The notes below the pieces were generated by a model. That model searched no databases. It had not been told where the DNA came from and saw only the letters and a list, made by a program, of their open reading frames with translations. From positions 1 through 32,875 of the IMG/VR virus record IMGVR_UViG_3300000230_000018: a stretch of 32,875 nt of DNA. One strand, written 5' to 3'. This document shows positions 9,741 to 32,875 of the stretch, piece after piece. Numbering within the stretch: the first letter of the stretch is position 1; each line of letters opens with the position of its first letter. Origin of the DNA: a virus. The position numbers and the translations under genes were made by a program.

Positions 9741-11444
9741 TTATATTATTACTACTGTCCAGTTTTTTGCTGTTGCAATTGATGTATCACAAGTTGATGC
9801 ACCTGGATTACCTTTAACTGTAACTATTTGAGTGGTCGCTGGCGTTCCTAAGCTTGTGAATAATTCATTTAATGCAGTTGCATCTAGTGAACAGTTAGCA
9901 ACTGAAAATGTCACTTTTAATCCTTGTGCTGTTAATTTTCGTAACAAAAGACATTGATTAAAAGTATAATAAGTACAATTAGTGCCTGCTATTGAATCAC
10001 AATTTGTTAATTCAATTTCTTCTAAAAGATTGCAATTATTAAATGTTTGTTGCAGAGATGTTACCCCTGTACAATCAATTGGAGCTATCTTTTGTAAAGT
10101 GTAACAACCTTCAAATGCACTAACCAATGTTCCTTTTACTAAAATATTACTAGCGTCTGTAAGAGAATAACAAGTTGTTAACATAGAACTACTATTCGTT
10201 ATAGTAGTTGAATTAATGTCAGGAAGTTTTTTAACATTATAACAATTTGCAAACATATAATAAGTTGATGCTAAATCTCTAAAATTATATTGAGAAAAAT
10301 CAGTAAATTGCTCACAATATCTAAACATACAATTTGCTTGTTGAACTTTACGTACGTCCATTTCAGGAAGTTTTTGTAAATTGACGCAATTACTAAATAA
10401 ATCCCCTGCATTCGTTACATTAGATGTATTACTAATTGTTACTTTTTCTAATTTATAACAATTAATAAAAGTTCCTTGTAACGATGTTAAACTTAGAGAA
10501 GTTATTAAATTTACATTTTTAATTTTAGTACAATTACTAAATGTTTGAGTTAAATTACCAGCTAACGGTAAATTAAGATTTATAGTACCTCTTAATTTAT
10601 AACACTGTAAGAAAGCTATTGTTAAATTAGTAACTTTTTCTAAATTAAAATTGGGTATTCTTTCTAAACTGAAACATTGATAAAATGATTGAGCAATAGT
10701 AGTTACATTAGAGGTATCATATAGAGGTACTTCAATTAAAGAATAGCAAGAGAAAGCAAATGCAGATATTGAGGTAGCAGTGCTCAAATTCAACATAGGA
10801 AGTTTTTGGATTTTATAACAACCGCCAAACATTGTTCCAAAATTAGTACCACCTACAGAAAAGGAATCTACTTGTAATAAATTAATACAATAATAAAACA
10901 TTTCTGCACAACTAGTAATTACACCTGTTTCTCTAATTGATACTCTTTCAACCATTCTCAAATAAGAAGGAGATGTCGAACTATTGATATAAAGATTACT
11001 ACCTACAACATTTGGCGTATTTATAACAATATCTAAAAATTTAGTATTAAATACAACTGCTGGAAGTGCTGTATGACGTTTTCTAAAATCAATATATGTT
11101 ATATTTTGTCCTGCTTGTGGAGTAATTTTTATAAGTGCTTGTCTATATCCTCTACTGCAATCATTACCAACTGTTGTGTAATCGTAAATATGTTGCGCTT
11201 GTGTGTTGCTTGTAACATTTTCTACTGCACCGTCACCCCAATCTACTGTGTAATTTCCCGATATTGTAAATGCACAATAGTTTAATTCTTCTTCAACCAC
11301 CGCCATAAGACAATATATTACTTGTTCACCGGTTGATATTTCAGGTATAGGAATCCAATCAACTGGGCGAACCCATTCTTCTGCTACTGCATATGGTTCG
11401 TTATCACTATCATTATTATTATAAATTTTTGGATTGTGTATCAT
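9741..11444 (-). CDS. BspA-type leucine-rich-repeat tail fibre/adhesin, 567 aa
   Basis: The N-terminal 40 residues look like a linker (WVRPVDWIPIPE). Residues about 55-90 resemble a PKD-like beta domain (TVDWGDGAVENVT ... HIYDY). From about residue 186 to the C-terminal part there are some 13 repeats, mostly of exactly 24 residues. Each begins with Cys and follows the pattern C-x-x-L-x-x-h-P-x-h-(N/D)-x-S-x-V-T-x-x-x-x-x-F, for example CYSLIEVPLYDTSNVTTIAQ. This matches BspA-type (DUF285) leucine-rich repeats found in surface proteins of gut bacteria. Its place at the end of the fibre cluster and before the lysin suggests a receptor-binding or carbohydrate/protein-binding fibre. It overlaps the upstream gene by 4 bases (ATGA). 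Function as an adhesin is inferred from the repeat family and location. Confidence 0.8.
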   Translation of the reverse strand: MIHNPKIYNNNDSDNEPYAVAEEWVRPVDWIPIPEISTGEQVIYCLMAVVEEELNYCAFTISGNYTVDWGDGAVENVTSNTQAQHIYDYTTVGNDCSRGYRQALIKITPQAGQNITYIDFRKRHTALPAVVFNTKFLDIVINTPNVVGSNLYINSSTSPSYLRMVERVSIRETGVITSCAEMFYYCINLLQVDSFSVGGTNFGTMFGGCYKIQKLPMLNLSTATSISAFAFSCYSLIEVPLYDTSNVTTIAQSFYQCFSLERIPNFNLEKVTNLTIAFLQCYKLRGTINLNLPLAGNLTQTFSNCTKIKNVNLITSLSLTSLQGTFINCYKLEKVTISNTSNVTNAGDLFSNCVNLQKLPEMDVRKVQQANCMFRYCEQFTDFSQYNFRDLASTYYMFANCYNVKKLPDINSTTITNSSSMLTTCYSLTDASNILVKGTLVSAFEGCYTLQKIAPIDCTGVTSLQQTFNNCNLLEEIELTNCDSIAGTNCTYYTFNQCLLLRKLTAQGLKVTFSVANCSLDATALNELFTSLGTPATTQIVTVKGNPGASTCDTSIATAKNWTVVII

Positions 11445-22263: not shown

Positions 22264-24594
22264 CTAATTCTTATTTGCATTTGCAATTCTTTCATTAGTT
22301 CTAAGTGTTTCTTCTTTTAACCTCATATTATCATTATGTTGTCGTTTCTTAAAATCTAAATCATTCTGTTGTTGTTCACTTCCATCATTTGAGTTATTTA
22401 ACATAGTACTTACACCATTTATAATTAAATCAACTTGATTTCTACTATCCTGACGTTTTGTTTCAGCATCTTCTTTAATTAATAGATTTTCACGTTCAGC
22501 TTTATATTTTTCAGCTTGTGCCGTTCTTTTAATTTCTTCTGCTTCTTTTTTAATTCCCTCTAATTGTAATTGAAATTCACGATTCTTTTGTGTAAATTCT
22601 TTTACCTTTTCTTTAATAGATAATAAATCATCATTAACTATTAATTCTGTCATTGATTCAATATCTCCATTTTGTGATGCAGATAAAGCCATCTGTTTTA
22701 CTTGTTGTAGTTTTTGTGTTTCACCGGCAACATCTTTAATAAAAATACCAACATTGTCATTAAAGTTTTCAATACCATCAACTACAACTTCTACCAATTT
22801 ACCATCAGGAGTTTGAATAACTCCACGTCTACCATCAATCCATGCAATTTTGGTATAATCAATCATAGCTTCAAGTATATTAACTATTACTTGAGAATAT
22901 GTATTAATTGCTAACACATTACCGATTGTTGCATAGTTCTCTTGTTTATTGGCTAATTCACTAGACATATAAGGACTAGCATTACCATAACGAACAGGAT
23001 TCATTTCAGCTTCATCTAAAGCTTCCATTTCAATACTTTTCATTATATTAGTTAATGAATCAAGATACTTTTCAACTGTGCTTCTAAAACTCATTTGAAG
23101 TGCAGTAACTGCTTGTTGACTTAAATCCGTATCATTTAATATTAACATATCATCGGATACCATTTTGCTAAATCTTTCTTCTAATGTAAATTCAGCTGAA
23201 TCGCTAAGTATAGATTCGGGTAGATATTGAAGATAAGGTTTAAATTTAGCAATGATTTGCTTTCTTTTAAGTCTTATAATTTCATACTCTATTTGATAAT
23301 TAACTATACGACCCGGTAAAGGTTTTAAAGGTAATACAGGTAGAATATTAGTCGTTCCATAATATGAATTTTTTAAGAAACTCTTAATACTTAAATGTTC
23401 ACGTTGAACATCTAATTCTTTAACTTTAGTATATACGGCTAAATTAGTGTCATTTCCAAATCTCCAACCTTCATAGAAACAATCAATAAACGACCATTTA
23501 ATTTCTATATCTCCAAAAGCTGAATCAAAAATATAATCTTCAGATACTTCTTTTTCTTCAACTTTATTTATTTCTAAATTAAGATAAGTTAGTTTTCCTA
23601 TTTTCTTTTTTGATACTGCTTGTAAATGATAAACATCTGTTTCTAAATGATTGTCTGTAAATTCAAAATGTGTTTGACGTAACGATTCTAATCTATTACT
23701 TATAATACCCGGATGTTGACTAATATCAATTGTACCATTAAATTCACCACTTGTAGTTTCATATAAATATACTAATTCTTTAAGTTGTTTTTTTGTATTA
23801 AGTGTCATTAAATTACCATGTTGTTCAAGTATATCATGTAATCTCATTCTATATTTACGAACTACAACAGGACTATCTTCAATAAACCCAGTAGTACTTG
23901 TAAGACAATATAATTCATGAGGTGGTACAATATCAAAAAATGTATCATTCTCTAAATTATATAGATAAGTACAAATATTATCTGTAACAACATAGAAATA
24001 AGCTAACTGTGATAACTTATAAGTAAAATCACATAATTTTTTAAGTAGTTCAATTCGATGTTTGGCTTTAATAGCTTTCTCATCTATAAACTTTTGAGTT
24101 TCTTCTTTAATTATTTCATTAATATCCGGTAACTCTTCAGATGGCATTCCAGTAGGAACACCTTGTTCATTTAAACCATTAACAAATTTTTGAAATGCAA
24201 CGTCCATAACCTTTGCTGCAATTAAACCATTTCTAGTTCCAACTGCATCACCATCTTCTGTATATACTTGAAAATTAGAATAACGTGTAATATATTCACC
24301 TACATACTTTTTAACTATTCGTAATACCAAATTAAATTCTTGTTTTACAACTTTAAATTCTTTTAGTTTTTCAGGAGTTAAATCTGCTTGTAAACTATTT
24401 ATTACTTCTTTATATTTACTATCACTAATATCATGTGATACATAACTATACTGTTCTTCTATAATAGCTTTACGTTGACCGTCTGCATTCAAAGCTCTAT
24501 CAATATAATAATCAATAAAGTTTTCATACCAATCAGGAGTACTTTTAGTATTAAAAGATACTTCATCTTTTGGTGAATGTACTTCTTTTTTCAT
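22264..24594 (-). CDS. Portal protein (crAss-like), 776 aa
   Basis: The gene follows TerL with a 4-base ATGA overlap and precedes the scaffold and major capsid genes, the canonical portal position. The length (776 residues) fits the large portals of crAss-like and P22-like phages. It has an N-terminal alpha-helical region, a beta-rich middle (YEGWRFGNDTNLAVYTKVKE), and a helical stretch (SMVSDDMLILNDTDLSQQAV, then MSFRSTVEKYLDSLTNIMKS) that fits the stem/crown. The C-terminal 140 residues form a strongly charged coiled coil (REFQLQLEGIKKEAEEIKRT, then AEKYKAERENLLIKEDAETK), as in barrel-bearing portals. The dodecamer would form the DNA channel. Assignment rests on position, length and architecture. 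Confidence 0.8.
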   Translation of the reverse strand: MKKEVHSPKDEVSFNTKSTPDWYENFIDYYIDRALNADGQRKAIIEEQYSYVSHDISDSKYKEVINSLQADLTPEKLKEFKVVKQEFNLVLRIVKKYVGEYITRYSNFQVYTEDGDAVGTRNGLIAAKVMDVAFQKFVNGLNEQGVPTGMPSEELPDINEIIKEETQKFIDEKAIKAKHRIELLKKLCDFTYKLSQLAYFYVVTDNICTYLYNLENDTFFDIVPPHELYCLTSTTGFIEDSPVVVRKYRMRLHDILEQHGNLMTLNTKKQLKELVYLYETTSGEFNGTIDISQHPGIISNRLESLRQTHFEFTDNHLETDVYHLQAVSKKKIGKLTYLNLEINKVEEKEVSEDYIFDSAFGDIEIKWSFIDCFYEGWRFGNDTNLAVYTKVKELDVQREHLSIKSFLKNSYYGTTNILPVLPLKPLPGRIVNYQIEYEIIRLKRKQIIAKFKPYLQYLPESILSDSAEFTLEERFSKMVSDDMLILNDTDLSQQAVTALQMSFRSTVEKYLDSLTNIMKSIEMEALDEAEMNPVRYGNASPYMSSELANKQENYATIGNVLAINTYSQVIVNILEAMIDYTKIAWIDGRRGVIQTPDGKLVEVVVDGIENFNDNVGIFIKDVAGETQKLQQVKQMALSASQNGDIESMTELIVNDDLLSIKEKVKEFTQKNREFQLQLEGIKKEAEEIKRTAQAEKYKAERENLLIKEDAETKRQDSRNQVDLIINGVSTMLNNSNDGSEQQQNDLDFKKRQHNDNMRLKEETLRTNERIANANKN

Positions 24595-26876
24595 CTACAT
24601 TTTTTTAATCGTTCATTCATTCGTTCTTTAACTACTTTGTTATTTGTTTCTTTTAGACCGATTGATTTAAAATATACTCCTGCTAAACGTGCAGAAGCTA
24701 AACTATCTAAGTTTATATCTAAAGAAAATATTTGTGCACTTTTCAATAATGGTAAACTATATATATTTTGAAATCTATATCTAAGATTACCATCTTCATC
24801 TCTATTGACACGTTCATATAAAAACTGTTGCAAGTATTCATAATATTTAAAACCTGCTACACCATTTGGTATAACTACACCATAACCAGCGTTAGGGTCT
24901 CGTTTACCTTTACTTATAATACTCGATGGATCTTTTTCAATTAAACCTAACTTATTCCAAGTTTTAAAATTCTTAATTGTTTCTCCAACATTAACCTCAG
25001 GTAGTCCAGTTGCACCCCAATAAAGTAGAAATTTTAAAAATAAAAAATCATTATCTTCATTAAGTGCAAAACGTCCAATCCATTCAGCAACTAAATAACC
25101 AGTAACCTTATCCCAAATTTGAATAGAAGCAAGTGAATGAGTCTTTTTTAAAGTAGATAAATCTTTATCTATTTTAACAGGGTCATATACTGCTAGATAT
25201 CTATTCTTTAAAGGTTCACCTTTATTATCTAATATTCTAGGAAAGTACTCACGTACTAAACCATGAACATCTTTTTTAATATTAAATGGTACATCTTCTA
25301 TAAATTCCCAACGTTTATTTGAAAGTTTACTTTTATCTACAAACTTAACATTAATATCTTTATTAGTTCTATCATCATTTGTAATATACCAACCATCTCT
25401 CCAAAATCTATAATCTGGATTAGTTTCTACTTGTTTGATATGTTCATTTAATTCAGGTGAACTAAATATATTTTCAATATTACTAATAAAAGCTTCACTT
25501 GGTGTGTTAGCTCTTTGACCAAGATATATTATATATTCACTATAAGTTTTATGTCCTTTTGCAACAGCCTTATCTTCTCTATCATAATAGAATGCGTCAA
25601 TAAGTTGGCTATTACCATCTTTAACATAAGGTAATAAACCTAATACTTGAGGGTAAAAGAAACCACAAGTACGAAACTCACTATCAATATCATATATATT
25701 ACAAAGTGGAATACAACTATTAGCTTCAGGATTATTAAAGATATAAGCAAATTGAATATAGTCAGCTTCATTAGTACCACCTGTACCAAAATATACAGAC
25801 ATCCCAACTTTAATAGCTCCTACTTCATTAACTGATTTAGTAACTCCAATAACATCTAATATATTTTTAAATGCTCCAGCTTCTTCATATACAATACGAA
25901 CTGCCTGTTTACCTACTGCTTGTTTAATATTCTTTTGACAACCAGCACTCCATATAACAGAACCCCAACCTTTATTAATTTTACCAGTAGAATCTTTATA
26001 ACCAAGTATTAGTTCTTCTAAATCTTTCGATATATAATTCCTAATCCAATGTGTATGTTCTTCATACCAATCTAAGTCAGTTTTAAGCATTGAAGTAATT
26101 GCTCCTTCATCTGTAAGAAAACCTACGTCATAAGCTAAATATAATAATTTAGTTTGTTCATATAGATTTGCACGATTAGCACCTTTACTTCCCTCTTTAA
26201 ATGAATAACCTTTACGACGTGCTTTAGCTTTTGCAATATCAAAGTTATTATATATACAAAACTCATCTACTTTAAAATCCCAGTAATCACCATCAATAAA
26301 GAATGGAAAACCTTCTTTTAATTTCACATAAGCATTTGATATATTATGTTCTATTTCAAACTTAAATTCTTCAGGGGTTTTAATACGTTGTATTCTACTA
26401 AAGTTTAAATAGTTATAATGATCACCAGTAATATGAATAGGTTTAAGTAATTCTCGTTTACGCCATGGAGGTGTAATAGGATTAATATATTCTTCAATAT
26501 CACTAAATAATAATTTACAATTTCTAGTTAAACCTTTCTTACGTCTTGCAGTTTCACGTCCCCAAAACTTCTTATATTCAATAGAATTAAAATCATAATT
26601 TGTATATCTTTTATGTATTTCATAAAACATAGCAACTTCACAAAATTCATGTACATTAACAAATACAAAATCAATATTCATTAATAGTGCTTCTTTATCA
26701 TTTAATAAAAAATCCCCATCTGCATCTAAATACTTAGTAGCAGCTGGGGTATATTCTGATTTGTCCATTAAACAATAATGAATGTAAGGAACATCAATAT
26801 CATCAAGTTCTTTTGGAAATCCATAAAAGTGATAGGCAGGATGATATGCAGGTAATAGTTTAGTCGACATTTTCAA
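24591..26876 (-). CDS. terL: Terminase large subunit (packaging ATPase/nuclease), 761 aa
   Basis: The ATPase half carries a deviant Walker A-like motif RRKGYSFKEGSKGANR (about residues 220-235), a Walker B-like strand VRIVYEEAG (326-334) with paired acidic residues, and a coupling-type motif VYFGTGGTNE (361-370). The C-terminal half contains RYLAVYDPVKID (559-570), whose aspartate starts the RNase H-like nuclease domain. The protein would pump DNA into the head and cut the concatemer. It overlaps the preceding gene by 17 bases and the portal gene by 4, so all three are translated together. An internal ATG at 26870 (residue 3) is also possible. About 760 residues is in the range of crAss-like TerL. 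Confidence 0.85.
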   Translation of the reverse strand: MKMSTKLLPAYHPAYHFYGFPKELDDIDVPYIHYCLMDKSEYTPAATKYLDADGDFLLNDKEALLMNIDFVFVNVHEFCEVAMFYEIHKRYTNYDFNSIEYKKFWGRETARRKKGLTRNCKLLFSDIEEYINPITPPWRKRELLKPIHITGDHYNYLNFSRIQRIKTPEEFKFEIEHNISNAYVKLKEGFPFFIDGDYWDFKVDEFCIYNNFDIAKAKARRKGYSFKEGSKGANRANLYEQTKLLYLAYDVGFLTDEGAITSMLKTDLDWYEEHTHWIRNYISKDLEELILGYKDSTGKINKGWGSVIWSAGCQKNIKQAVGKQAVRIVYEEAGAFKNILDVIGVTKSVNEVGAIKVGMSVYFGTGGTNEADYIQFAYIFNNPEANSCIPLCNIYDIDSEFRTCGFFYPQVLGLLPYVKDGNSQLIDAFYYDREDKAVAKGHKTYSEYIIYLGQRANTPSEAFISNIENIFSSPELNEHIKQVETNPDYRFWRDGWYITNDDRTNKDINVKFVDKSKLSNKRWEFIEDVPFNIKKDVHGLVREYFPRILDNKGEPLKNRYLAVYDPVKIDKDLSTLKKTHSLASIQIWDKVTGYLVAEWIGRFALNEDNDFLFLKFLLYWGATGLPEVNVGETIKNFKTWNKLGLIEKDPSSIISKGKRDPNAGYGVVIPNGVAGFKYYEYLQQFLYERVNRDEDGNLRYRFQNIYSLPLLKSAQIFSLDINLDSLASARLAGVYFKSIGLKETNNKVVKERMNERLKKCR

Positions 26877-29664: not shown

Positions 29665-30135
29665 TTAATTAATATCAAGATTAGTAACTTTATGTAGATC
29701 ATAAACTGTAACTCCTTCTAACTTAACTTTACCATCTTTAATTATTCCCATATAATTATAATAAGGTATTAAAAATGTCTCTTCTATTAAAATAGGACTT
29801 GTTATAGTAGATTGTTTATTATAGCTCATTCCTTTTAGTTTAGCAAATTTACTTTGAGCGCTATAACTTTTAGTTGAATTAGTTGCTACATGTTTAAAGA
29901 TATTACCATTTTCTAAAACTACAATACCTTTTAATAGATTCCCATCAGTATCAAATAAGGCTCTACATTCTTTACCTGCATCTACAACTTCAAGTATCCA
30001 TTCTACTTTAGGAATATCACCTTTATTAAATATTTCAAATTGTGATATTAGACCTCTTCCTTTTGCTACAATTATAGCTTCACTTGGAACTATAATAGTT
30101 TCTTCCTCGTTTGATGTGTTTAAATTAATTTCCAT
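29665..30135 (-). CDS. First gene of the leftward block, unknown protein, 156 aa
   Basis: A soluble 156-residue protein. It is acidic at the N-terminus (MEINLNTSNEEETIIVPSEA) and beta-rich afterwards (AIIVAKGRGLISQFEIFNKG; ILEVVDAGKECRALFDTDG). It has no recognised motif, signal peptide or membrane span. It lies about 45-50 bases downstream of the Bacteroidota-type promoter at 30184-30214, so it is the first gene of the leftward transcript. The next gene begins with its ATG immediately after this stop. Position suggests a gene whose product is needed together with the HU-like, zinc-ribbon and nuclease proteins. Function unknown. Confidence 0.6.
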   Translation of the reverse strand: MEINLNTSNEEETIIVPSEAIIVAKGRGLISQFEIFNKGDIPKVEWILEVVDAGKECRALFDTDGNLLKGIVVLENGNIFKHVATNSTKSYSAQSKFAKLKGMSYNKQSTITSPILIEETFLIPYYNYMGIIKDGKVKLEGVTVYDLHKVTNLDIN

Positions 30136-30183: not shown

Positions 30184-30214
30184 CAAAGATACATATATAT
30201 AATGTATAAATCAA
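30184..30214 (-). promoter_or_regulatory. Bacteroidota-type promoter of the leftward block
   Basis: Reading the minus strand, TTG at 30214-30212 is followed by exactly 20 nt and then TATCTTTG at 30191-30184. This matches the Bacteroidota primary-sigma consensus (-33 TTTG, about 19-21 nt, -7 TAnnTTTG). The expected start is near 30178, giving a leader of about 45 nt before the 156-aa gene. This would place late genes under host RNA polymerase, unless a phage polymerase also recognises a site here. Confidence 0.65.
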
Positions 30215-30412
30215 TACAAACTAGTAATATATTTACTTCTTAACATTTTTTAACAAGCGTCTATGTTAAGTAGAGCCGATTATTTAATTTCTGAAATATC
30301 ATTAACAATTTTTTAAGATTCTCAAAATTGTAAAACTAGTTAAATTCTTGTTACAAATATAGCAACATTGTTATCTTCTGTTAAAAAATTAGGTTTTTCC
30401 TCTTGACAAGAT

Positions 30413-30476: not shown

Positions 30477-30492
30477 ATACTTTCAAAAGTAT
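30477..30492. repeat. Perfect inverted repeat, 7-bp arms
   Basis: ATACTTT and AAAGTAT are separated by two bases (ATACTTTCAAAAGTAT). This is a possible operator. It is near the two later copies of CTATTGAAAGTATTATATAT, which share the AAAGTAT half. Confidence 0.4.
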
Positions 30493-30501
30493 GCAAAGAC
30501 T

Positions 30502-30522
30502 AATACTTGCTTCGCAAGTATT
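30502..30522. repeat. Perfect hairpin AATACTTGC/GCAAGTATT
   Basis: Nine perfect base pairs around a 3-nt loop (TTC). It is not followed by a T-tract on the plus strand (TAAAAAATC follows) and is preceded by T's on the minus strand's far side, so it is not a normal terminator. It may be a cruciform or operator site. Confidence 0.45.
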
Positions 30523-30544
30523 TAAAAAATCTTAACAAAATTTC

Positions 30545-30587
30545 AAAAAATCTTAACAGATTTTACAAAATTTTGTTAAGATTTTTT
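30545..30587. terminator. Long A/T stem-loop, possible bidirectional terminator
   Basis: AAAAAATCTTAACA pairs with TGTTAAGATTTTTT over 14 perfect pairs around a 15-nt loop, with a run of T's completing the plus-strand side and a run of T's on the minus-strand side. It contains two of the TTAACA motifs, so it may be an origin element and not a terminator. The G/C-poor stem makes termination uncertain. Confidence 0.4.
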
Positions 30588-30681
30588 TTATTTTAATTAA
30601 CTTTGTTAAAATTTTGATAAAATCTTACAGATTTCACAAAATTTTAACAAAAATATTTTTAAAATTTTAACAATTTTTTAA

Positions 30682-30750
30682 ACTATTGAAAGTATTATAT
30701 ATTTTATTATATATTTTATTATAGGTTTTACTATTGAAAGTATTATATAT
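30682..30750. repeat. Two exact 21-nt direct repeats (30682-30702 and 30730-30750)
   Basis: Both copies read ACTATTGAAAG followed by TATTATATAT and are spaced 48 bases start to start. A shorter, degenerate third copy with ATTGAAACTATATG begins near 30767. Exact repetition over 21 bases in one direction indicates a protein-binding or promoter element, not chance AT-richness. Confidence 0.6.
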
Positions 30751-30840
30751 AATTCTATTGATATTACTATTATTGAAACTATATGTTTTAGTTGAGGTTC
30801 TACTGATATTAATTATAACTTTGCTATTAATTGTAGATGC

Positions 30841-30856
30841 CCCCTATCGGGAGAAT
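30841..30856. repeat. Hairpin element CCCCTATCGGGAGAAT, copy 2
   Basis: Exactly the same 16 bases as 22198-22213. The inner inverted repeat is CCC-TATC-GGG. It lies in otherwise extremely AT-rich DNA and begins no gene. The related sequences at 31517-31533 and 31827-31843 have the same design (a small G/C stem followed by A/GGAAT or AAAAT). Confidence 0.7.
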
Positions 30857-31184: not shown

Positions 31185-31216
31185 TATGTTAGTATTAATT
31201 AATGTGTGGTTATATA
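31185..31216 (+). promoter_or_regulatory. Promoter-like 32-nt repeat, copy A
   Basis: TATGTTAGTATTAATT followed by AATGTGTGGTTATATA. It matches copy B (31372-31403) at 28 of 32 bases, and a shortened copy with GTTAGT followed by TTATTTGTGGT is seen at 31074-31097. Each copy points in the same direction. Conserved blocks are GTTAGTAT and GTGGT.ATATA. It does not match the host TAnnTTTG consensus, so a phage RNA polymerase promoter or activator site is possible. Confidence 0.5.
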
Positions 31217-31371: not shown

Positions 31372-31403
31372 TATGTTAGTATCAATTTATTTGTGGTCAT
31401 ATA
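31372..31403 (+). promoter_or_regulatory. Promoter-like 32-nt repeat, copy B, directly before the candidate RNA
   Basis: TATGTTAGTATCAATT followed by TATTTGTGGTCATATA. It ends 8 bases before the G/C-rich block at 31412 that opens the candidate RNA, so the RNA could start at about 31404-31412. Copies in front of non-coding stretches, in the same orientation, fit a promoter more than a protein-coding remnant. Confidence 0.5.
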
Positions 31404-31514
31404 GCATTCAAGGCGGGGGCACTTCATCATTTTTCCTACCCCGTCACTTCTCTATTAGAGCTATCTGAATAAACATCATCTACGAAATTACAGATATTTA
31501 TATTTTTCAACACT

Positions 31515-31550
31515 AATCCTCTTCGAGGAAAATTCAATATTCTATTAGTA
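31515..31550 (+). repeat. 36-nt hairpin repeat, copy 1 (inside the candidate RNA)
   Basis: It matches 31825-31860 at 32 of 36 bases. It starts AATCCTC and includes a TCCTC/GAGGA stem with a 3-nt loop, then AATATTCTATTA. The loop changes (TTC versus TAC) while the stem is kept. Here it also sits between the ACTAAT and ATTAGT arms. Confidence 0.6.
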
Positions 31551-31663
31551 TTTGGTAGGAATGCAAATGATGAAAAGCTAATAGAAGCAAGTTTTAATGT
31601 CGAAACTCGTTATTGAAAGGTTTAATATATTCTGCCTACCATATCCCCTATACTGGGTCTTCT

Positions 31664-31693
31664 AACCAATGGCAATAATGTCATTGGTTTTTT
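31664..31693 (+). terminator. Intrinsic terminator ending the candidate RNA
   Basis: AACCAATG pairs with CATTGGTT (31664-31671 and 31682-31689) around a 10-nt loop, followed by TTTTTTATT. No gene lies upstream on the plus strand, so the transcript it ends is non-coding. Its T-tract and following bases (31688-31703, TTTTTTATTAGCTTCA) are identical to those after the 164-aa gene terminator. Confidence 0.75.
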
Positions 31694-31761
31694 ATTAGCT
31701 TCACCATAGTTTTATTAATACTATTAATACACAATATTTAGTTACAATACTCGCAGTTATA

Positions 31762-31815
31762 CAATCTTAAAAGATAGTATGATTAGGCTTCAATCTTAAA
31801 AGATAGTATGATTAG
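31762..31815 (+). repeat. Tandem 25-nt repeat upstream of the rightward genes, operator candidate
   Basis: Two exact copies (31762-31786 and 31791-31815) spaced by GCTT. Each contains the palindrome ATCTTAAAAGAT followed by AGTATGATTAG. The tandem symmetric sites 84-137 bases before the 79-aa start suggest a repressor or activator binding array. The 4-base spacer rules out a CRISPR. Confidence 0.65.
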
Positions 31816-31824
31816 AATTATATA

Positions 31825-31860
31825 AATCCTCTACGAGGAGAATCCAATATTCTATTACTA
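31825..31860 (+). repeat. 36-nt hairpin repeat, copy 2 (leader of the 79-aa gene)
   Basis: It has the hairpin TCCTC-TAC-GAGGA followed by GAATCCAATATTCTATTA. The copy ends 38 bases before the ATG of the 79-aa gene. Its TCCTCTACGAGGAGAAT core matches TCCCCTATCGGGAGAAT at 22197-22213 in 13 of 17 positions, so the two element families are probably related. Confidence 0.6.
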
Positions 31861-31898
31861 AATGAATTAGCAATTATTAACTTTAAAATTATATTATT

Positions 31899-32138
31899 AT
31901 GAATCAAGACACCTTCAAATTAGTTATCCTACTAATAACAACACTGATTGTTATTTCAGTTGTGTTATTTTTTATGTTTACTTCTATTTTAGAAGCATTT
32001 ACTAATTATCGCAATCGTTGTACACATTCTAATCGTTACTTTGATGGTGATACTATGACAATACGTTGTAGTGAATGTAATGAAGTAATTGTATCAATTG
32101 TAGATACAATGTCACTTGAAGAATTTATTAATCAATAA
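31899..32138 (+). CDS. Small membrane-anchored zinc-binding protein, 79 aa
   Basis: One N-terminal transmembrane span (LVILLITTLIVISVVLFFMF, about residues 8-27) is followed by a soluble part with CTH (about residue 42) and CSEC (about residues 57-60), in RCTHSNRYFDGDT and IRCSECNEVI. This is a C-x-H ... C-x-x-C pattern as in small zinc fingers. A C-terminal acidic end follows (TMSLEEFINQ). It is the first rightward gene after the divergence zone and ends 5 bases before a terminator hairpin. There is no Shine-Dalgarno sequence in front of the ATG, as usual in Bacteroidota. A membrane-tethered zinc module could be a host-interacting or early regulatory protein; the function is unknown. Confidence 0.65.
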   Translation: MNQDTFKLVILLITTLIVISVVLFFMFTSILEAFTNYRNRCTHSNRYFDGDTMTIRCSECNEVIVSIVDTMSLEEFINQ

Positions 32139-32142
32139 CATT

Positions 32143-32178
32143 AACAGTAGTATCAATTGGTACTACTGTTTCTTTATC
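32143..32178 (+). terminator. Terminator after the 79-aa gene
   Basis: AACAGTAGTA and TACTACTGTT form 10 perfect pairs around an 8-nt loop, followed by TCTTTATC. The stem starts 5 bases after the stop codon at 32138. The interrupted T-tract makes it weaker than the other terminators. Confidence 0.65.
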
Positions 32179-32189
32179 AATCATTGCCC

Positions 32190-32222
32190 TTTGGGCATAA
32201 CTCACTAATCTATTAATCTTTG
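32190..32222 (+). promoter_or_regulatory. Candidate Bacteroidota-type promoter of the 164-aa gene
   Basis: TTTG at 32190-32193 is followed by 21 nt and AATCTTTG at 32215-32222. It deviates from TAnnTTTG only at the first base; TAATCTTTG is an off-by-one version. The predicted start near 32229 leaves a leader of about 80 nt containing the structure at 32239-32300. Confidence 0.4.
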
Positions 32223-32238
32223 GCACGTGTTGTGTCAC

Positions 32239-32300
32239 TCTAGTTATTGCAGAACTAGATATAACTGTTCGATTTGGAGAGACTGCAACTCTTCGTGGAG
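32239..32300 (+). promoter_or_regulatory. Leader with possible pseudoknot and a GGAGG ribosome-binding site
   Basis: A hairpin TCTAGTT/AACTAGA (32239-32245 and 32253-32259) has the loop ATTGCAG. Its TTGCAG (32247-32252) is fully complementary to CTGCAA at 32283-32288, which would form a pseudoknot about 10 bases before GGAGG (32297-32301). That ribosome-binding site is 7-8 bases before the ATG at 32309. A strong Shine-Dalgarno sequence is rare in this window. The layout suggests translational control of the 164-aa gene, as known for the T4 gene 32 leader; this comparison is an inference. Confidence 0.5.
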
Positions 32301-32308
32301 GATTCATT

Positions 32309-32803
32309 ATGAGTTTCAAGAATTTTAAAAAAGTAGAAGCTACTAACTTTCAAAGTGGCAGAGTATTAGTTACTGGTATGTATGATAGTAACTTTCCTGT
32401 TAATTATGCAGTTAAAGCCGATGGTTCAAAAAGACGTATGTATGAAGGTGATGCTTTAGAGGCTGACGAACGTTTAGAATCTGTACCTGCAAAGGTTGTA
32501 AGTTTTAAACCAATCGTTGTAGTTGATGGTATTGAAACATTTGAAGAAACTGTTCAAGCAACTATCGAAGTTTCACCTCGTACTTTTGTTAATATGGTTG
32601 AAACACCTGAAGCTGAAGAGTACAAAGGTCAAATGGGTGCAGTTGCAGCAGCTACTTATGTTGACTGTGTTGCTGAACATGCATCAGGTAATTTACAAGT
32701 AGGTGATACTTACAGTAAACTTACTAAACTTGCATTTACTCTTGACAACAAATCAGTACGTTTGGCATTAGGTGCTAAAGCTGGTATGGTTATGCAATTC
32801 TAA
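32309..32803 (+). CDS. Probable highly expressed early protein of unknown function, 164 aa
   Basis: A soluble protein with alternating strands (GRVLVTGMYDSNFPVNYAV, VSFKPIVVVDGIETFEETVQ) and a helical, Ala-rich C-terminal half (QMGAVAAATYVDCVAEHAS, AFTLDNKSVRLALGAKAG). It has slightly higher G/C codon choices than neighbouring genes, a GGAGG ribosome-binding site and a clean terminator at 32811-32840, all fitting strong expression. A beta-rich fold with a structured leader would suit a single-strand-binding or regulatory protein, but there is no acidic C-terminal tail and I do not recognise a family. An in-frame extension upstream to 32201 lacks an ATG and is rejected as the start. Confidence 0.65.
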   Translation: MSFKNFKKVEATNFQSGRVLVTGMYDSNFPVNYAVKADGSKRRMYEGDALEADERLESVPAKVVSFKPIVVVDGIETFEETVQATIEVSPRTFVNMVETPEAEEYKGQMGAVAAATYVDCVAEHASGNLQVGDTYSKLTKLAFTLDNKSVRLALGAKAGMVMQF

Positions 32804-32810
32804 AGTAATT

Positions 32811-32840
32811 AAGCTACATCTTCGGGTGTGGCTTTTTTAT
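32811..32840 (+). terminator. UUCG-type intrinsic terminator after the 164-aa gene
   Basis: AAGCTACATC pairs with GGTGTGGCTT (10 pairs including two G-U) around the stable TTCG tetraloop, followed by TTTTTTATT. It begins 8 bases after the stop codon. The T-tract and following ATTAGCTTCA (32833-32848) are identical to 31688-31703. Confidence 0.85.
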
Positions 32841-32875
32841 TAGCTTCAACCTTAAATACTACTACTAGATATATT

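Follow-up and report, generated by a model that had tools for sequence, protein, structure and literature searches.

The window analysed here covers the whole of an IMG/VR virus record, 32,875 bases long. Because MCP, portal and TerL (24591-26876) are recognised by PHROG matches (PHROG 11589, PHROG 6547), it is assigned to a crAss-like phage. Phages of this kind are abundant in the human gut, and little is known about how their early transcription and replication start. Among named relatives, cr127_1 (Crevaviridae) is the nearest, with a TerL identity of 39%. TerL relatives are encoded on 202 IMG/VR contigs, and the closest TerL among the best 80 of these 202, a set that may omit very near records, are 42-43% identical. 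Left of 30135, the structural block with TerL, portal and MCP has leftward ORFs, and the ORFs at 31899-32138 and 32309-32803 run rightward. The stretch 31404-31693, which a first-pass annotation had proposed to be transcribed and to act as a structured RNA, sits in the non-coding divergence zone between the two blocks. No sequence homolog of this stretch was found by nhmmer --max, sensitive blastn, exact degenerate patterns or protein anchors in searches that covered viral contigs, GTDB genomes, phages and plasmids. The features of the zone are collected in Table 1.

Table 1. Features of the divergence zone (window coordinates) and loci of relatives that carry the C-tract element
Feature	Position	Strand	Basis and remarks
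C-tract half-copy, usual orientation, GATGCCCCCTATCGGGAG	30836-30853	+	second-best half-B score in the window (14.4)
Promoter-like direct repeat, copy 1, TATGTTAGTATTAATTAATGTGTGGTTATATA	31185-31216	+	88% to copy 2; putative function
Promoter-like direct repeat, copy 2	31372-31403	+	repeat search
Inverted C-tract element copy, CGGGGTAGGAAAAATGATGAAGTGCCCCCGCCTTGA	31408-31443	-	best half-B score in the window, both strands (18.7)
Predicted closing helix, 5' arm, AGGCGGG	31411-31417	+	fold model; pairs with UCUGCCU at 31631-31637
18-pair helix, 5' arm	31423-31440	+	predicted fold, shuffle test
18-pair helix, 3' arm	31554-31574	+	predicted fold, shuffle test; bulge 31562-31564
Hairpin element, copy 1, AATCCTC-TTC-GAGGAAAATTCAATATTCTATTAGTA	31515-31550	+	repeat search; TCTATTA at fixed offset
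22-codon ORF, MSKLVIERFNIFCLPYPLYWVF	31597-31665	+	ATG 31597, TAA 31665; candidate coding
Intrinsic terminator, unit 1	31664-31693	+	11 pairs at 31664-31689, then TTTTTT
Two identical 25-nt direct repeats, CAATCTTAAAAGATAGTATGATTAG	31762-31815	+	repeat search; 29 nt apart
Hairpin element, copy 2	31825-31860	+	89% identical to copy 1; before ORF 31899-32138
Unit 2 ORF, 79 aa	31899-32138	+	hydrophobic N-terminal stretch, C-terminal CxxC
Terminator, unit 2	32143-32170	+	terminator scan
Hairpin element, copy 3	32183-32218	+	weaker repeat match; before ORF 32309-32803
Unit 3 ORF, 164 aa	32309-32803	+	no detectable homolog
Terminator, unit 3	32811-32834	+	terminator scan
C-tract loci of relatives	L003:706, L004:266, L016, L025-L028, L035, L038, L041, L043, L046, L048, L054, L058, L059		
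C-tract loci of relatives, continued	L063, L065, L068-L070, L072, L075-L078, L081, L082, L086-L088, L092, L094, L135:40, L136:2111		

Terminators, hairpin elements and proposed units

The right part of the zone would be divided into three short transcription units, all rightward and one after the other (31404-31693, 31760-32170 and 32175-32834), each with one hairpin element and with its own intrinsic terminator at the end. The hairpin element is a 36-nt repeat, and all three copies have a perfect 5-bp stem, a 3-nt loop and 11 nt before TCTATTA. Compared with copies 1 and 2, copy 3 has two stem pairs changed on both sides, with pairing kept. Three sites combining the hairpin with TCTATTA are found in the zone, whereas only 2 of 200 whole-window shuffles hold even one; a fourth match, at 29759, has an A-T stem and lies inside a gene. 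The non-coding DNA of the window holds four 5-bp stems with 3-nt loops (0.1 expected, with a maximum of one in 200 shuffles) and none with loops of 4-8 nt. Copies 2 and 3 each follow a terminator and precede the next ORF. In unit 3 only 15 nt separate the end of the preceding terminator from the hairpin, and a promoter farther upstream would not fit into the intergenic gap. Judging from position alone, the element most likely marks the start of a unit, as a promoter or a promoter-proximal leader.

The region contains six terminator-like sites, compared with 0.5 expected, and the three strong ones are on the same strand. The one that the first-pass annotation had placed at the 3' end of the stretch is real, and those of units 2 and 3 begin 5-8 nt past the stop codons. 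The unit 2 ORF, for which PHROG and Pfam searches gave no match, probably encodes a small membrane protein. PHROG, Pfam and further homology searches with the unit 3 ORF found no match, and phmmer detected no homology between it and the first early ORFs of relatives. A comparable opening of the early block, with short ORFs and terminators at once after them, is seen in the relatives L021, L028, L035, L038, L043, L045, L046 and L063, and terminators precede any long ORF in the zones of L021, L023, L059 and L070. The sequence TTTTTTATTAGCTTCA follows two of the three terminators of the window (31687-31702, 32832-32847), and L028 and L021 too repeat sequences straight after terminators; such repeats are perhaps start signals of the next unit. 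The direct repeats between units 1 and 2 have an operator- or iteron-like appearance.

By the layout of units 2 and 3, unit 1 would have the hairpin element at 31515, followed by the ORF at 31597-31665 and closed by the terminator at 31664. Its product would be a short RNA, terminated after about 150-280 nt and either non-coding or with a 22-codon micro-ORF. The stretch had been described as having no usable reading frame, which overlooks this ORF, whose stop is at the unit 1 terminator; yet such an ORF is not statistically remarkable, and by our estimate it could well have arisen by chance. The start of unit 1 may lie upstream, near 31411, or at the hairpin element, at about 31534-31550. The upstream start would follow from the promoter-like repeat reported just before the 5' end of the stretch, which is indeed present, if TATAGC (31399-31404) serves as a -10 box; its second copy matches only 7 of 12 sigma-70 consensus positions and is absent from the promoter-scan list. 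Hairpin copy 1 sits 110 nt inside the RNA so proposed. A start at the hairpin element would place the 5' arm of the long helix outside the transcript, and short versions of unit 1 without the terminator have no stability beyond shuffles (z of -0.6 to -0.8). The terminator and the unit layout make it likely that a rightward transcript ends at 31689; action of an RNA of about 290 nt through its fold, the other half of the original proposal, is unsupported.

Folding of the stretch

The 18-pair long-range helix with its 3-nt bulge withstands examination. It is formed by 31423-31432 with 31565-31574 (10 pairs) and 31433-31440 with 31554-31561 (8 pairs), its pair probability in the ensemble is 0.98-0.99, and with bulges allowed it scores 16, while even a score of 14 is reached in none of 1000 dinucleotide-preserving shuffles of a 257-nt stretch. 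This helix and the 11-pair terminator are the only pairings above chance. At full length the stretch folds with a z of -3.3 to -3.5 against shuffles; without the terminator z is -2.1 and 20 of 500 shuffles are equally good, the stability being carried by one helix. The nested hairpins described earlier exist as pairings, but the inner domain (31441-31553, z = -0.6) and the 3' half (31580-31645, z = -0.2) fold at chance level. The long helix consists of Watson-Crick pairs only and is strand-symmetric, and it therefore fits DNA equally well as RNA. The opposite strand of the core folds alike (z of -2.3 versus -2.1). Strand-specific evidence for RNA is essentially the terminator plus the two G-U pairs of the short closing helix, AGGCGGG/UCUGCCU, which has seven pairs, a pair probability of 0.91 and ACCA after it (31638-31641).

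The Rfam 15 covariance models gave no match at the gathering threshold, the best sub-threshold matches being far below it and at chance level. RNase P and the other Rfam families are rejected on this result, and the first-pass view that the RNA would be of an unrecognised type holds to this extent. A working unit 1 RNA, if there is one, would be new among phage RNAs. It resembles the phage small RNAs with intrinsic terminators in being a short intergenic stretch with a terminator and a promoter-like repeat in front, and differs from them in lacking an Rfam 15 family and in its possible 22-codon ORF.

A C-tract element shared by crAss-like phages

K-mer counts revealed a G+C-rich string, CCCCCGTCA, shared by seven divergence zones of relatives. 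It forms part of a bipartite element composed of a C-tract (often a CCCC-GGGG palindrome), 26-31 nt and then TTGAA-NN-CCCCCGTCA. A position-weight scan finds the element in 35 of 98 loci, which include overlapping or near-identical contigs and so represent somewhat fewer independent phages, and in all 35 it is on the strand opposite TerL. The matches cover loci outside those used to build the matrix, among them cr3_1, cr127_1, ctbg_1, cr271_1 and several GTDB contigs. Among six whole relative genomes, five have one clear bipartite site and the sixth (G004) has the second half only. In the scanned genomes the element is essentially single-copy, with an extra half-copy in L021, and because none of the six has more than one clear bipartite site, a role as a repeated promoter is rejected. 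In L035, L038 and L063 it lies 64 nt ahead of the first early ORF. RNAalifold on the aligned element gave no consensus structure on either strand. We found no published description of it in the open-licence literature, which is not proof of novelty.

The window has the second half of the element twice, once inverted, and lacks the full bipartite form. Its best half-match, on the minus strand at 31419, reads TGAAGTGCCCCCGCC, the same site as GGCGGGGGC of the first-pass annotation, with the CCCCGTC tract opposite; the counterpart in L028 is TTGAAGTACCCCCGCCATG. The orientation of this copy is opposite to that in the 35 relatives. In the half-copy of usual orientation (match at 30840) the 13-mer ATGCCCCCTATCG is identical to L046, and the first half is not recognisable. 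L031 aligns over 31389-31480 at 39.4, compared with a maximum of 32.0 in 120 shuffles, and this alignment rests mostly on the C-tract element. Competing helices had been proposed from the strings GGCGGGG/CCCCGTC and CCTACC (31635)/GGTAGG. Both pairs of strings exist, but the former are the two tracts of the C-tract element, so that part of the supposed competition is a conserved cis-element, here inverted. The 5' end of unit 1 would overlap this element, which is common to crAss-like phages. Foremost the C-tract element, and with it the hairpin element, could be an early promoter, an operator or an origin; both are concrete candidates.

The zone as a whole resembles the divergence region of the Crassvirales, as in Carjivirus communis between gp87 and gp88 (RepL) and in the uncultured phage cr127_1 (Crevaviridae). 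The likeness lies in a long AT-rich non-coding zone, a TerL-side operon facing early genes on the opposite strand, the C-tract element on the early strand (35 loci) and short terminated units opening the early block. The window differs in its rearranged C-tract copies, one inverted and one a half, and in a hairpin element of its own, which was not found in the zones of relatives.

Long inverted repeats are also present in some of these zones. L048 has one with 25 perfect pairs and a spacer of 121, L058 one with 18 pairs and a spacer of 201, and prototype crAssphage (BK010471.1) a perfect 17-bp one before RepL (L133:9743-9759/9863-9879, spacer 103). Across six aligned crAssphage strains the arms are almost invariant and the spacer keeps the same orientation throughout; an adjacent hairpin (9890-9910) reads GGAC-GAAA-GTCC in LMMB and C0526BW15 in place of GAGC-GAA-GCTC, so that the stem changes are compensated. 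These three repeats have no sequence in common with the window, and most zones of relatives are without such a repeat; the cases show only that long-range repeats recur in the zone. A 31-nt piece of the crAssphage repeat arm also occurs in the phage contig MT835852 (L143).

Readings of the probable control region

We favour the explanation that the stretch is part of a divergent early control region between the leftward and rightward blocks of a crAss-like phage, with a short terminated unit 1, and give it roughly an even chance of being correct. It is preferred over a DNA-level inverted repeat and over a folded regulatory RNA, the former being mutually compatible with it. As a DNA element, the 18-pair repeat would represent inverted binding sites, part of an origin, or recombination sites around an invertible segment of about 113 bp that would carry the hairpin element; this reading, taken as a whole, is possible and we hold it to be doubtful. 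The strand symmetry of the helix, the comparable G+C-containing inverted repeats in L048, L058 and crAssphage, and the overlap of the left arm with the family-wide C-tract element argue for it. An inverted repeat flanking 100-400 bp is the arrangement of the invertible promoters (invertons) of Bacteroidota, and the window has two arms of about 18 bp, 113 bp apart, with a promoter-like element between them. However, its arms differ by a 3-nt insertion, a bulge that is unusual in recombination sites, the spacer orientation is constant in the crAssphage strains, and such repeats are missing from most relatives. A structured regulatory RNA of about 280 nt, running from about 31411, closed by AGGCGGG/UCUGCCU, built on the 18-pair backbone and switching between mutually exclusive pairings, is unlikely, although a riboswitch-like or multidomain RNA is possible. 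The helix is beyond chance, and the predicted start point, the closing helix and the terminator coincide; but the inner domain and the 3' half are at chance level, both strands fold alike, nhmmer, BLAST and pattern searches found no homolog for covariation, and the cis-elements (the triplicated hairpin and the inverted C-tract copy) explain part of the pairings at the DNA level. Structured early-strand stretches with terminators also exist in the zones of L021 (5245-5560, minus strand, z = -5.1) and L046 (z = -5.4), yet they are not clean analogues: on inspection by eye, the former stays open with TGA decoded as Trp, so it may be a gene that uses another code and not an RNA, and the latter holds a 55-aa ORF.

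That several crAss-like phages, including prototype crAssphage, share an early ncRNA of different sequence and the same layout, which would control the block switch or an adjacent replication start, is quite improbable; this layout would be a long-range helix around about 100-200 nt, next to C/G-tract elements and sometimes with a terminator. We attach a similarly low probability to the hairpin elements being DNA-hairpin promoters for a virion RNA polymerase in the manner of phage N4. The polymerase carried by crAss-like phages belongs to another class than the N4 vRNAP. The elements do have the 5-bp stem and 3-nt loop seen in N4, within the 5-7 bp range, they precede short rightward units straight after terminators, and two of the three template-strand loops are of the C-GNA-G type (GAA, GTA). 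In N4 this loop type is needed for hairpin extrusion, and the template strand of the promoter has a purine at -11, G at -10, G at -8 and C at +1 (PMC4496689). Against this pattern, the -8 bases of the three copies are T, T and C, copy 3 has the loop AAA and A at -10, and copy 2 has T rather than a purine at -11. Hairpins with 3-nt loops are not in excess among relatives (9 seen against 5.0 expected), and N4-like promoters are thus unsupported as a family-wide feature. A tmRNA- or tRNA-like RNA is hardly credible. The 7-bp acceptor-like helix followed by ACCA, together with the long second helix, recalls tmRNA topology and is not sufficient; ARAGORN and Rfam were negative, permissive thresholds included, no T-arm is recognisable and no tag-like frame was seen, and tmRNA is rejected.

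To the left of the stretch, a cluster of AT-rich palindromes at 30486-30690 has 27 and 21 pairs with spacers of 3-4 and a fold z of about -10 on both strands. The segments with z < -9 at 30490-30690 were rejected as an RNA signal, these palindromes being strand-symmetric. Similar clusters occur in L048 (2340-2500) and L068 (4431-4550), and the cluster is possibly an origin or a bidirectional terminator. Ahead of the structural block, the minus strand at 30184-30220 reads TTTG-N25-TATCTTTG, which is like the Bacteroidota promoter consensus except that its spacer is too long. A 9-bp stem with a C-GAA-G triloop is present at 30502-30522 (minus strand AATACTTGC-GAA-GCAAGTATT), and on the same (TerL) strand the zone of L063 has CTTGC-GGA-GCAAG at 2149.
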